This document shows positions 10,566 through 16,680 of a DNA stretch of 40,695 bases, one piece after another. The notes beneath the pieces are model-generated. The model made no database searches. It was not told the origin of the DNA and saw only the letters and a program-made list of their open reading frames with translations. The position numbers and the translations under genes were made by a program. The stretch spans positions 1 to 40,695 of the forward strand of contig JAUZRW010000104.1 in the NCBI GenBank assembly GCA_030950085.1, in the 5' to 3' direction. The DNA is from Anaerolineae bacterium. GTDB taxonomy: Bacteria > Chloroflexota > Anaerolineae > Aggregatilineales > Phototrophicaceae. The first letter of the stretch is position 1. Every line of letters begins with the position of its first letter.

Positions 10566-12215
10566 TTAATTGTACGAAAGCAAACGCCTAATCGTGAGTG
10601 CAAGATGCAGCGCAAGCCGAGTCTCTGGGCGATTGAGGTCAATGCCTGCGATTTGGTTGATGCGATTCATACGGTACAAGAGCGTGTTGCGGTGAACGAT
10701 TAATTGTTCGGCTGTCTGGCTTAAATTGCCGTGACAATTGAAGAAAGCCTCTAGCGTTTTTATCAAATCGGCATTCTGACGCATATCATACTCATTTAAT
10801 TTTCCCAGTGTATGGTCACGAAAGTCTGTTAATTTATCGCGGTCACTGAGCGACAATATCAGTTGGTATACGCCCAAATCTCCGATATATAAGGGCGTAT
10901 CCGTTTGCAAGCGAATCGCCAAATCTCGTGCTTGAACAGCATCTCGATAGCTCGTGCGCCACGCACCGACATCACGCGCTGGTTGCCCCAAGCCAATAGC
11001 GAGATGATTGTTGGCATATTGTCGGTTGATATCTCTTGCGAACGCCTCAGCTAGTTTGAGGCTGAAATCAACGGGGTCATCGGCATCTGTCGCTTGGAAT
11101 ACGACCACTTCATTATCGCGCTCACGTTGCCAAACCAGTGCGTCAGCATGTTGATTTTCGATAATACTATTAATCATTGTTTCGAGTCGCCGCATTGATG
11201 GCGGATTATCGCCGCGCCATGCCATGACTAAGGCAAGATGATTGAGTGTCATATCATGCTCAAAGCGTTCGCCCTGCCGAATCGCCTCTTGATGACTGAC
11301 ATCACCAACTAAGAGACGGTCTAAGAATGTGCCTCGTAAACGCTTTTCAGTTTCGCTAACAGCTTTAAGTTTTGCCATTTCTAAGGCACAAGCAGCCGCG
11401 CCATGTTCGGCAACCAGCAAATCTATATCATCAAGTTCGCTGTCATGACCAATAATCGACAAAAAGCCGCGTCCAACGCCTTTAGTAATAATGGGAGAAA
11501 TTAAACGTGCGATACCCGGCATCGGTAGCGATTGCATCAAAGCCGAATGGTCTACCTCACTCACACGATGGCGGTCTTGGTATTCAACTGGAATATTATC
11601 ACCCTTGCGTAAAAATGCTTCAATTTCTTCCCATACTGCCGCAAATTGAGGCTGCAAAGTATATTCAGAAACGCGCAAACGCTTATCTTGGATAACGACT
11701 GCCTTGCCTGTCAAACGCGCCATGGCGCTGATGAGTTCTACCATGCCTTCGTTTCGTGAGGAGATTTGGGTTAATTGGCGATAAATTTGTGTGCCACGTC
11801 GTTCGAGTTGACCTTTGCGGTCAACCAGTAAACTAACCACTGTTTTTTCAACGATGCGTGGACGATTCCCACTCGGCATGGTCATGATTGGGATACTATA
11901 GGCTTTGGCTTCTGCAATCGCATTACTTGAAGGAGGCATAACCATCACTAGCGCAGACGCATGGCTATCTGCTGCCCAGCGTACTATATCAACATCTGTC
12001 GCCACATTTGCACGGGGCTTAGTTGGCGGCGCGACAATCACCATTTCGTCTTGTTGGAGCGATTTGGATGAAAAATTGTCATCCAGATAAACAACGGTTG
12101 TCCAGCTAACCGGACGATTCAAGAGTCCATCGCCCGTAATGACCCGTGTTCCAAGAGGGAGTGCTAATTTTCTAATATCTTCAACAGTTAGGATATTGGT
12201 TGCGTCAGTCGTCAT
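10566..12215 (-). CDS. PucR family transcriptional regulator
   Basis: The 549-residue protein has the PucR order: an N-terminal PucR domain (LTVEDIRKL, GLLNRPVSWTTVV), a middle GAF-like sensor region at about 145-290, a GGDEF-like region, and a C-terminal helix-turn-helix with the diagnostic NLSQTAEQLIVHRNTLLYRM. Family members regulate purine catabolism, proline or other nitrogen metabolism; the target here is unknown, although gltB lies downstream on the same strand. The frame allows ATG 12236, but the predicted transcription start falls on it. ATG 12215 (MTTDATNIL) leaves a normal leader with GGA about 9 nt upstream, so I prefer it. Its 3' untranslated region carries the dispersed repeat. 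Confidence 0.88.
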   Translation of the reverse strand: MTTDATNILTVEDIRKLALPLGTRVITGDGLLNRPVSWTTVVYLDDNFSSKSLQQDEMVIVAPPTKPRANVATDVDIVRWAADSHASALVMVMPPSSNAIAEAKAYSIPIMTMPSGNRPRIVEKTVVSLLVDRKGQLERRGTQIYRQLTQISSRNEGMVELISAMARLTGKAVVIQDKRLRVSEYTLQPQFAAVWEEIEAFLRKGDNIPVEYQDRHRVSEVDHSALMQSLPMPGIARLISPIITKGVGRGFLSIIGHDSELDDIDLLVAEHGAAACALEMAKLKAVSETEKRLRGTFLDRLLVGDVSHQEAIRQGERFEHDMTLNHLALVMAWRGDNPPSMRRLETMINSIIENQHADALVWQRERDNEVVVFQATDADDPVDFSLKLAEAFARDINRQYANNHLAIGLGQPARDVGAWRTSYRDAVQARDLAIRLQTDTPLYIGDLGVYQLILSLSDRDKLTDFRDHTLGKLNEYDMRQNADLIKTLEAFFNCHGNLSQTAEQLIVHRNTLLYRMNRINQIAGIDLNRPETRLALHLALTIRRLLSYN

Positions 12216-12247
12216 CGTAATTTTTCCAAGAGCCATTACTATAGTGA

Positions 12248-12276
12248 CTTGTAACCTATCCTGTGCCTTATGTCAA
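12248..12276 (-). promoter_or_regulatory. Promoter of the PucR gene
   Basis: On the minus strand TTGACA (12276-12271) and TACAAG (12253-12248) are spaced 17 nt. The predicted start falls near 12240, which supports translation from ATG 12215. Confidence 0.6.
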
Positions 12277-12331
12277 TATGCACAAATACTTTCAGCTAAT
12301 TTTGATGAATGTGTGAACGATAGCACAAAGT

Positions 12332-12664
12332 TTAACTTTCGTTAGAAAATATGCCAAAAAGGATGTGTGCTACTGTAAAGCCGATAGAAAGCAATATCAA
12401 ATCAATATAGATATTCACATAGAGCGATGTGATGGCTAGTAAAAATAATGCCACCGATATCATCCACGTTATAGGACTCACAGTCCATTTTTGTGAGATT
12501 TGATAAATTCCACTAAATAGTAAAATAAGGGACAAAATAATCGGAACAAAGATAGAGGGTATAAGAGACAAATCACGGTCAAACCGCAATAATGCAAAGA
12601 CGAGAACCATTGCAAACCATGTCGCCCGTTCAAATTTTGCTTCTGTGCCTTTTTTACGTGCCAT
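12332..12664 (-). CDS. Small integral membrane protein of unknown function
   Basis: 110 residues with a short basic start (MARKKGTEAKFER) followed by four hydrophobic segments, roughly 14-26, 33-50, 62-80 and 84-104. No known motif was recognised. The basic N-terminus predicts that it stays in the cytoplasm. ATG 12664 follows TTAAGGTGC, a close ribosome-binding site; a TTG five codons upstream is also possible. An extended -10 promoter (12702-12710) lies about 40 nt before it. It is divergent from the lipoprotein gene. Confidence 0.6.
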   Translation of the reverse strand: MARKKGTEAKFERATWFAMVLVFALLRFDRDLSLIPSIFVPIILSLILLFSGIYQISQKWTVSPITWMISVALFLLAITSLYVNIYIDLILLSIGFTVAHILFGIFSNES

Positions 12665-13757: not shown

Positions 13758-13765
13758 TAGAATCA

Positions 13766-13800
13766 AAAAGGGGCGTTCTACTGTGTTTGCCCCTTGTACT
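13766..13800. terminator. Bidirectional terminator between convergent units
   Basis: AAGGGGC (13768-13774) pairs perfectly with GCCCCTT (13789-13795). On the minus strand the stem is followed by TTTTTG, a good signal for the three-gene operon; on the plus strand by GTACTT, a weaker one for the lipoprotein gene. Confidence 0.75.
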
Positions 13801-13806
13801 TACCTC

Positions 13807-14223
13807 TTAATCTTCCATCAGTTTGTCGTAGCACCCTTCCCAATCTGAGGGATTGCGTGTCATTTTGTTGATGACAATATTGGAAAAGTGTGGGAACAAC
13901 TTCATCATGATGTCCGGCAATTCATCCCAATTTTCGGCACGCAGCATCTTTTCTATCTTTGCTGCCATATTGCCTGTCCACATCCATTCTTGCTGGAATT
14001 TATCGGCTTTTGTCCAGTAGCCGCGTTTTTCCCATGCTTGGATTGTCTCGATAATGCCGTCGTCAATTTCTCGCAGACAAAAGATAGTCATCGCAACCAT
14101 ATCGCGCACGTCATCATCAATATCGCCTTGATGTTGACCTAACCGTCGTATAATTTCGGCAATTGTTCGCATGAGATGACCGCGACGTTTGCCGGGAGAG
14201 TTGGGGTTAATGACTCGTCCCAT
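13807..14223 (-). CDS. Conserved hypothetical protein, third gene of an uncharacterised operon
   Basis: 138 residues, mostly helical, starting MGRVINPNSPGKRR. A charged helix DIDDDVRDMVAMTIFCLREI is followed by a Trp-rich segment (AWEKRGYW, QEWMWTG) and ends NPSDWEGCYDKLMED. There is no signal peptide or membrane segment, so it is cytoplasmic. I recognise the type as a lineage-restricted Chloroflexota family but know no function. It lies 31 bp after the 144-residue gene and ends at the shared terminator. AAAGGAG stands 12 nt before the start. The basic start (GKRR) could touch nucleic acid; this is inference only. Confidence 0.7.
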   Translation of the reverse strand: MGRVINPNSPGKRRGHLMRTIAEIIRRLGQHQGDIDDDVRDMVAMTIFCLREIDDGIIETIQAWEKRGYWTKADKFQQEWMWTGNMAAKIEKMLRAENWDELPDIMMKLFPHFSNIVINKMTRNPSDWEGCYDKLMED

Positions 14224-14254
14224 AATCTTTGACTACTCCTTTTGCACAATATAG

Positions 14255-14689
14255 CTAATGACCTTGCATTGGACGGATTCCACGATAAACACGAATTCCA
14301 CCGAATGTTTTTAGAATAGTACGTGCATCACGCCCTGTATCTGCTTCGAGTTCTTTTGGTGAGCGTGGGGTGTTCCCATTGCTCAAAAAAATACGAAATA
14401 CACTATCAACGAGTGAGGTTTGTATAGTGATAAAATCTTCGCGTTTGGCAGATTCTTGAATCGCCAAGCCCAATTCATCAAGGCGTTGCACTTCACCCGT
14501 TTCGGGGTCAATATAATCAACGACTTCAAACTCATCACGCCCGACAAACTTCTCGCGCAAGTCTGGGGGCAAATGCGTCAACATATAGGCGCGTAAATCA
14601 TTGTTTTCGCGTTCCCACCAATCGTAGTCGATATGAAACAGGGTCTTGAGTGTCGGTTTAACGACGGTACTTGATTTTCCAGCTTGCAT
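14255..14689 (-). CDS. Conserved hypothetical protein, second gene of an uncharacterised operon
   Basis: 144 residues. Recognisable blocks are TLKTLFHIDYDWWER, a middle WxxPETGE-like turn (YIDPETGEVQRLDEL), SLVDSVFRIFLSNGNTPRSP, and a C-terminal helix-turn-helix-like block DTGRDARTILKTFGGIRVYRGIRP. The last block has the spacing of a small winged helix: helix, TIL-KTFGG, then a basic hairpin. I associate the protein with Chloroflexota genomes; no function is known to me. AAGGGG lies 7 nt before ATG 14689, and only 18 bp separate it from the upstream 521-residue gene, so they are co-transcribed. Confidence 0.72.
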   Translation of the reverse strand: MQAGKSSTVVKPTLKTLFHIDYDWWERENNDLRAYMLTHLPPDLREKFVGRDEFEVVDYIDPETGEVQRLDELGLAIQESAKREDFITIQTSLVDSVFRIFLSNGNTPRSPKELEADTGRDARTILKTFGGIRVYRGIRPMQGH

Positions 14690-14707
14690 TGAAAAACCCC
14701 TTTCTAA

Positions 14708-16273
14708 TTACGTTGTATTGAGTTTCCAATAATGGTTGCCCACATCTTCAAAGTCTGGATTAGCGGTCAATAGTGCAAAGATAGGACCCGGCGCACAGCG
14801 ACGAATCACATTAACGGCACTATAGAGCGTCACAGCATGGACTGTCCCTTGTGGCGATAATTTAGCCAGTTCGGTAATTAATTCGCGTAGGATAGACACA
14901 ATGGTTTTGTCTTTATAGGTTTTAGCAAGTTTGTTCACGGCTTCTATATCATCCACGCCTATAATCATCAATTCATCGTATTCTGCCCCAATCGCCCGTT
15001 TCTTCTGTTCAAAGGTAATCTGGTTATTTTTGGGAGTCAGGATACGAATCCACTCTGTCCGTGGGTTATATGCTTCATGACTGACAATAATCTGGCTTTC
15101 TTCTTCACCGAGTTTGACACTGATATCTGCGCCAATTGGAAGGCTATGCTTCGTGTAGTAATCCAGCAAGCCAAATACATACTTATGGTTATGGACAACC
15201 CAGCCGCTGAATGTTTCACCATCCGTCTCGTCGACCAGTTCAACATGGATGCGTGGTGTTCGTGCGACTGGGAAAACTGTCCGAGTTTTAGCATTCAACG
15301 GTAATGTACCTAGTTGCCGATGAGGATAAATCAAGGCAGATGTTGCTTTGGGCAAACGCCCCTCAAATTCAATTGGCGTATGCTCATCATCAAGCTCGGT
15401 TTCGAGGTCAAAGATTTCATCACTGAGCAAGTCATCGTCGTATTCAATGGGGGTATATTGCAACAATTCAGGAATTTCACGAACTGCTTCGGGTTCCATA
15501 CGGTTCAAAAACCACATGACCTGTCCCAACGAGCCTACTTCGTCAAAGCGGTCATCATTGTTGAGGGCAAAGTTAAGTGAAAACACCTGTAGTTTGAGAG
15601 GGGCATCACCCAAGCCACCAATTTGCTCAATGATATCCTCTGGTGCTAATGGTCCCCCTCCTGCCATGTCTAAAACGGCTTCTGAAAGGTGCATGACACC
15701 CATATCACAATCCATCACTAATTCACGCGGGAACCAAAAGCCAGCCACCCGCTCTAATGCTGAGTGTTCTTTGAGTGCCGCTAACGTCGTCCGCAAGATA
15801 TGAGCATTATTCGCTTCAAGGGTTTCGTCAATGTCGATATCGCTATTGGTAGTCAGAGGATTTTCTTCTATTACTGTGTTGAGGATATGTTCTGTTGCGA
15901 GATTAGCAGCAAATTCACGGGGGTTGGCACCGATATTATGGTTTGCCTCATCGAATTTCACCGCAATGACATCAAATGCCCCATAGGTCTCATTATTACC
16001 AGACCGTACCGCAGTGACAGTCGCAGTGGCGAGAGCCATTTCGGTAAAAACAAGCCGCGTCCCAACATCATATTGCTTGGCTGGGATGTAAACTTGCGTA
16101 TCTTTATATTGCTTTGTCAGCAAGTCCTGTGCTTTTTGTAAGCGCGTTTCAATCAGTAAGTGTGCTAATTCTCGCGTTGTCATGGGCGTTTCACGCTCCA
16201 ATAAGACATTCACGAGGTAGTCTAGTTCTTCATCGCTTATGGTAAAGTTTTCTGTCCAGCGAGTCGCAAGCAT
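14708..16273 (-). CDS. Conserved hypothetical protein with repeated winged-helix-like segments, first gene of an uncharacterised operon
   Basis: 521 residues, acidic and soluble. Three helix-turn-helix-like parts are visible. The first (10-45) contains TPMTTRELAHLLIETRL. The second (about 193-257) contains PLAPEDIIEQIG and then DDRFDEVGSLGQVMWFL. The third (about 455-519) contains ELAKLSPQGTVHAVTLYSAV and DFEDVGNHYWKL. The last two share a wing-like ending (RFDEVG...W, DFEDVG...YW) resembling HARE-HTH/RpoE-type winged helices. A beta-rich segment (70-108) has the GTRLVF...VIAVKF look of a small barrel. GGAGG stands 9 nt before the start. A DNA- or RNA-binding scaffold is my inference; no catalytic motif was seen. 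Confidence 0.7.
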   Translation of the reverse strand: MLATRWTENFTISDEELDYLVNVLLERETPMTTRELAHLLIETRLQKAQDLLTKQYKDTQVYIPAKQYDVGTRLVFTEMALATATVTAVRSGNNETYGAFDVIAVKFDEANHNIGANPREFAANLATEHILNTVIEENPLTTNSDIDIDETLEANNAHILRTTLAALKEHSALERVAGFWFPRELVMDCDMGVMHLSEAVLDMAGGGPLAPEDIIEQIGGLGDAPLKLQVFSLNFALNNDDRFDEVGSLGQVMWFLNRMEPEAVREIPELLQYTPIEYDDDLLSDEIFDLETELDDEHTPIEFEGRLPKATSALIYPHRQLGTLPLNAKTRTVFPVARTPRIHVELVDETDGETFSGWVVHNHKYVFGLLDYYTKHSLPIGADISVKLGEEESQIIVSHEAYNPRTEWIRILTPKNNQITFEQKKRAIGAEYDELMIIGVDDIEAVNKLAKTYKDKTIVSILRELITELAKLSPQGTVHAVTLYSAVNVIRRCAPGPIFALLTANPDFEDVGNHYWKLNTT

Positions 16274-16609
16274 AGTGTCATGCCTCCAAATTCAAATCTG
16301 TATACAAAGTCTGCGAAATAAACCCATTGCAGGATGTCATCAATCTTGTCTCATACAAAATAAAAATGTTCCATATAACGAGATGAACCGTAATCAAAAC
16401 CTTTGTGAAACAAGATAGGGAGATAGAGGGTGCTACACCATTTTTAGGAAATATTAAATTGCGAAGCCGATAGAGTGCGACAACTATCAATGAATGTGTG
16501 CCTGATGATTGCTTAACTGAGATGATGTTGTACGCGAGTATCTCATAACTTGCTACTTTTATACAACTTGACCAGTATAACGGCGTGATGCAGGAATAAC
16601 AAGCATGGG
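16274..16609. other. Gene-free stretch between the divergent three-gene operon and rpmH
   Basis: This A/T-rich spacer must hold the promoter of the minus-strand operon, but no strong -35/-10 pair was found. Short minus-strand frames (16278-16490, 16543-16755) look non-coding. I looked for DnaA boxes (TTATNCACA) because of rpmH and saw none. Confidence 0.5.
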
Positions 16610-16638
16610 TTGACCCTACATTTTTCGTCCGCTATACT
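16610..16638 (+). promoter_or_regulatory. Promoter of the rpmH operon
   Basis: TTGACC (16610-16615) and TATACT (16633-16638) are spaced exactly 17 nt. The predicted start near 16645 leaves a leader of about 36 nt. A second TTGACC at 16568 has no matching -10 box at the right distance. Confidence 0.75.
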
Positions 16639-16680
16639 TGTTCGCTGTTCATTGAATTTTATGTTTGAGAGGAAACTGAA

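Follow-up and report, generated by a model that had tools for sequence, protein, structure and literature searches.

HARE-HTH domains (PF05066) are winged-helix HTH domains with an extra helix inserted (PMC11037411), and their fusion to restriction nucleases is known (PMC12839542). The delta subunit of RNA polymerase (RpoE) has one HARE-type domain at its N-terminus and, behind it, a disordered acidic tail, and binds RNA polymerase between the β′ shelf and jaw (PMC7749165). The operon described here lies in a 40,695-nucleotide contig from an Anaerolineae bacterium, which we call the window. The product of its first gene resembles these systems in part of its chain. Unlike HARE-HTH proteins, it carries several domains in one chain, and unlike delta it is a 521-residue protein in which conserved segments continue to the C-terminus. 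The conserved core of the operon consists of genes 1 and 2, which encode an undescribed protein pair of DNA-binding-type folds.

Operon layout and conservation of the gene pair

The operon is encoded on the minus strand, as are all features of genes 1 and 2 given below. Gene 1 (14708..16273) encodes the core multidomain protein of 521 residues, with winged-helix-like segments and two beta-rich domains; gene 2 (14255..14689) encodes its constant partner of 144 residues, with a C-terminal winged-helix-like segment; and gene 3 (13807..14223) encodes a family-specific protein of 138 residues and is unlinked elsewhere. Re-reading the open reading frames reproduced the 521, 144, and 138 codons of the original prediction and its gaps of 18 bp between genes 1 and 2 and 31 bp between genes 2 and 3. 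A shared terminator had also been proposed. A hairpin (AAGGGGC-N14-GCCCCTT) followed by a run of T's can be read behind gene 3 at 13764..13795 on the minus strand, but its folding was no better than that of shuffled sequences (z −1.4); it was missing from the list of a pattern scan because its loop is longer than the limit of that scan. On the other side, the operon diverges from an rpmH-rnpA-yidD-PQQ-propeller-yidC-jag cluster, and the intergenic region at 16274..16680 (minus strand) is the presumed promoter region common to genes 1–3 and this divergent rpmH-rnpA-yidD-yidC-jag cluster. The divergent rnpA cluster recurs at eight homologous loci. No RNA families were found between positions 12500 and 18000 of the window.

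Searches of Pfam, NCBIfam, PHROGs, PADLOC (no match at E 0.1), and PDB sequences with the three proteins gave no match at a meaningful level. We therefore dropped identity with a known family, in agreement with the original statement that none of the three has a known function.

Of 298 class genomes, 277 had a match to gene 1, among them 183 of the 190 good ones, and almost always in one copy per genome. At all 54 homologous loci whose contig extends far enough to show gene 2, this gene lay directly downstream of gene 1 on the same strand, at a distance of −14 to +92 bp (median 15.5 bp, with nine 4-bp overlaps), and the co-occurrence and order suggested earlier as a check on the operon thus held for genes 1 and 2. 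For a check of co-loss, we took 20 of the 21 class genomes in which gene 1 had no match. A gene 1 profile search found nothing in 19 of them and only a diverged, fused copy in the twentieth (G075). Gene 2 was detected by profile search in five of these 20 genomes that lack an ordinary gene 1: four copies (G064, G044, G094, and G075) were full or partial and lay close to a contig end (5 to about 110 bp away), on the flank where gene 1 would be expected, and the fifth match was a 24-residue fragment. Both genes were absent from the remaining genomes of the 20, including those sampled from families f17, f45, and f49. Because of these contig-end copies and joint absences, genes 1 and 2 appear to be retained or lost jointly, as far as the assemblies show. 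A scan of the genome collection with one sequence returned one relative, which is listed as an uncultured Chloroflexi bacterium.

Gene 3 behaved differently from the pair. In the window's family it adjoined gene 2 at every one of the 12 loci examined, and at 19 of 19 examined loci of other families it stood among unrelated neighbors with neither gene 1 nor gene 2 nearby; a "three-gene operon" is therefore true of the window's family only. The gene 3 profile matched 36 of 100 class genomes, and two genomes, G011 and G047, contain gene 3 and lack genes 1 and 2. Gene 3 is thus a lineage-specific addition to the operon, and the earlier view of the three genes as a single conserved system did not survive. 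Two PDB matches to the gene 3 profile (E 9e-4), both bearing designed-protein names, suggest that its product is probably helical.

Winged-helix-like segments and barrels of the two proteins

The original prediction placed an HTH-like part near the N-terminus of the gene 1 protein, two segments with like endings further along the chain, and a basic end in the gene 2 protein. All were present. The N segment, a winged-helix-like half (residues 10–60; 16094..16246), matched the C-terminus of the gene 2 protein in profile–profile comparison with a score of 30.5 (best of 60 shuffles 14.6; E 2.6e-6). The gene 2 segment (residues 85–144; 14258..14437) is winged-helix-like by its profile matches and slightly basic, with a family median charge of +2. 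The two like endings are DDRFDEVG at residues 240–247 with Trp254, and DFEDVG at 507–512 with Tyr-Trp at 516–517. In an alignment of 56 gene 1 homologs, Asp240, Arg242, Phe243, and Trp254 were invariant and Val246 nearly so, and the first motif is therefore not a chance feature.

The first of these endings closes W2, an acidic, HARE-HTH-like segment (residues 150–262; 15488..15826). The alignment of W2 with HARE-HTH spans 54 columns, beginning at the first helix (EAVL..G.PL..eI) and running to the end with D.RF..VG, and none of 60 shuffles reproduced this helix 1-to-wing pattern as well. Profile–profile scores against 60 column shuffles were 23.7 for the N segment and W2 (best shuffle 16.5), 26.7 for W2 and the gene 2 C-terminus (best shuffle 17.5), and 22.4 for W2 and HARE-HTH domains of the same phylum (best shuffle 17.0; none of 60 as good), but these shuffles retain composition and lose the general amphipathicity of winged helices, and the scores therefore support a winged-helix pattern more than close kinship. 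The Pfam cut-off for HARE-HTH was not reached: the window's gene 1 protein had no match at E 1, one of 56 gene 1 members matched at E 0.11, and four of 54 gene 2 members matched with a best E of 0.017. There is also a resemblance to the winged-helix domain of GDS1, a fungal protein (PF25318, WH_GDS1); 17 of 54 gene 2 proteins matched weakly (best E 2.6e-4), but the window's own gene 2 protein did not match at an E of 1 or below.

The full-length AlphaFold model of the gene 1 protein was poor (mean pLDDT 42.6), because it was built from two sequences only, those of the window and one relative. W2, the segment in which an inserted helix of the HARE-HTH kind would have to appear, lies in a low-confidence part of this model, as do the strands of residues 61–140 (15854..16093), a beta-rich region that by sequence pattern may be SH3/Tudor-like. 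A model of residues 297–521 was better for W3, the C-terminal winged helix (PQGTVHA...NVIRR...DFEDVG..YW; residues 440–521; 14711..14956), which showed the three helices and following beta hairpin of a winged-helix fold with block pLDDT values of 63–87 (fragment-model helices 162–174, 184–194, and 199–208 and strands 212–216 and 219–222; core-block pLDDT 71–87). The profile comparisons of the N segment, W2, and the gene 2 C-terminus and the model of W3 agree with the winged-helix segments proposed earlier. W3 did not match the HARE-HTH profile significantly (five of 60 shuffles were as good). In structural alignment, its top rows contained RNA polymerase delta subunits (Z 8.1, 8.0, and 7.6) together with telomeric Stn1 and forkhead domains, and unrelated matches commonly reach a Z of about 8. 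A Foldseek search with the fragment containing the barrel and W3 found no match with an E below 0.001.

Between W2 and W3 lie an acidic linker (residues 263–305; 15359..15487), with a net charge of −15 in the window's protein and a family median of −7, and barrel 2, a basic beta-barrel recognized from model strands (residues 306–430; 14984..15358). Barrel 2 had no Pfam match. Its middling-confidence model gave weak Foldseek matches to the plant B3 proteins VAL1 and FUS3 (E 0.17 and 0.32), and a 33-column profile match to B3 reached a score equalled by one of 60 shuffles; a B3-like DNA-binding pseudobarrel is possibly present, and we treat this resemblance as a lead only. Family median charges were −11 for W2 and +5 for barrel 2, and the gene 1 protein is acidic overall (pI 4.7). 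From these opposite charges we infer a division between a nucleic-acid-facing and a protein-facing part. Winged helices can also act as protein-binding domains. The original prediction of a nucleic-acid-binding assembly stands in part: such binding is likely, but W2 is strongly acidic, and at least part of the gene 1 protein may therefore bind protein rather than DNA.

These properties bring forward the main rival explanation, in which the gene 1 protein would be a lineage-specific, delta-like accessory subunit of RNA polymerase whose HARE-like domains dock and whose acidic stretches compete with nucleic acid. The comparison with HARE-HTH and RpoE had been suggested as a check on the original prediction, and similarities of this kind were found: W2 matches the HARE-HTH profile, the W3 model resembles delta, and W2 and the linker are strongly acidic, as delta also is (PMC7749165). 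Moreover, HARE-HTH was not found in the window's genome or in most of the class genomes sampled. Delta, however, has one HARE domain and a disordered tail, whereas the gene 1 protein contains several domains, including two barrels, and works with a putative partner protein; W3 scores as well against forkhead domains as against delta; and the examined loci show no synteny with RNA polymerase genes. On balance we regard a delta-like subunit as rather unlikely.

Distant relatives, neighboring genes, and a fused copy

The original prediction associated these protein types with Chloroflexota, and profile searches in other classes of the phylum indeed found distant relatives of gene 1, of about 530–680 residues (E to 1e-25). 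These relatives have W2, barrel 2, and W3 in common with gene 1. At seven of seven fully read loci from these classes, the gene behind the relative was not gene 2 but a different one, and at the one locus where this gene was compared with Pfam it encodes a HEAT-repeat protein. At L073, L074, L076, L078, L080, L083, and L085, a protein of ~300–330 residues follows the gene 1 relative, often with a Mur-ligase-like gene, and the conserved neighborhood there thus differs from that of the class. The gene 2 profile found stand-alone relatives in yet other families; two of these (L094:7604-8107 and L100:7134-7712) contain CxxC and CC motifs, absent from the window's protein, that possibly form a metal site. 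In the copies examined from two families of the class itself, f38 and f42, only the N-terminal half of gene 1 (profile positions 4–259) accompanies gene 2. Such halves, of about 250–266 residues, occur at L089:7617-8417 and L090:7634-8389 and are still followed by gene 2; the 17 kb locus does not contain the C-terminal half.

In one group of families, gene 2 is followed by Hsp20-like and Lon-like genes (L001:10049-13148; L051, L053, L054, L063, L065, and L066). Their position just downstream at seven loci would fit a pair that specifically regulates neighboring stress or cell-surface genes, such as hsp20 and lon. In other families, however, the neighbors of the pair are rpmH-rnpA, LysM, or unrelated genes, and the pair is retained without hsp20 or lon. 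Because neighbors differ from family to family, we favor a general factor and consider a local regulator improbable. No neighboring gene among the examined loci points throughout to a transcription or chromosome function.

The fused copy in G075 (contig C558, L162:5823-11987) joins a diverged gene 1 module and an Eco57I-family, type IIG-like restriction-modification enzyme in one frame of 2054 to 2070 codons. The module is full-length (profile positions 21–521, E 6e-33) and forms the N-terminus of the fusion; a reverse search with it recovered ordinary gene 1 proteins (E to 2e-18). A 180-residue open reading frame follows at 12072-12614. This single case from a fragmented assembly is consistent with gene 1 as a DNA-binding module, and supports such a function short of proof. 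It might also suggest a defence or mobile system in which the gene 1 protein is the DNA-recognition part of a restriction-modification unit. Gene 1 itself, however, has no detected nuclease or methyltransferase domain, it is distributed almost universally in the class and almost always in one copy, and PADLOC models matched none of the three proteins. Plasmids, phages, and viral contigs contained no match to the genes, and we dropped a mobile or viral origin; the G075 module likewise found nothing in those collections and no second fusion in 400 genomes. A defence role is thus very unlikely.

A candidate housekeeping pair

The reading that we favor, and hold tentatively, is that genes 1 and 2 encode a core DNA- or RNA-polymerase-associated housekeeping pair with a general accessory role in transcription or in the nucleoid. 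Near-universal distribution in the class, strict pairing, and the lack of fixed neighbors together argue for a general housekeeping pair. Co-conservation, gene order, mostly single copy number, and domain resemblance are observed; the two proteins would, in addition, associate physically and bind DNA or RNA polymerase, as a chromosomally encoded complex of the class that acts at the interface of DNA and transcription. The gene 1 protein would be a chain of winged-helix-like segments and beta-barrels, in which basic barrel 2 and the C-terminal winged helix probably contact nucleic acid. The acidic HARE-like segment and the linker would probably contact a partner protein, for example RNA polymerase, or the gene 1 protein itself. 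Another, basic winged helix would be supplied by the gene 2 protein, and the gene 3 protein would be an accessory, probably helical protein whose gene joined the operon in the window's family alone.

Winged helices are also typical of ScpA and ScpB, and the pair might take the place of ScpAB as an SMC partner of the kleisin/ScpB type; by profile, the window's genome and one relative lack both proteins. ScpA and ScpB were, however, present in all 14 of the other genomes tested, each of which has gene 1 or a distant relative of it, and there is therefore no class-wide pattern of replacement. This proposal is not supported across the class, and we consider it very unlikely. As an observation apart from the pair, the absence of ScpA and ScpB by Pfam profile from G000 and G242, which belong to the window's family, when the 14 other members of the phylum tested have both, may reflect a family-specific loss of SMC-ScpAB.

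A broader form of the housekeeping reading, possible but doubtful, is that the pair represents a phylum-specific basal component of transcription or the chromosome, either an RNA polymerase-associated or a chromatin-like complex, that is HARE-like, perhaps B3-like, and kept throughout the class, with a HEAT-repeat partner replacing gene 2 in other classes. A pair that is kept by nearly a whole class and belongs to no described family is a candidate for a core function in a large, poorly cultured group of bacteria. If it proves to be an RNA polymerase or nucleoid factor, then the basal machinery of this phylum would depart from that of model bacteria in a way that annotation has concealed.
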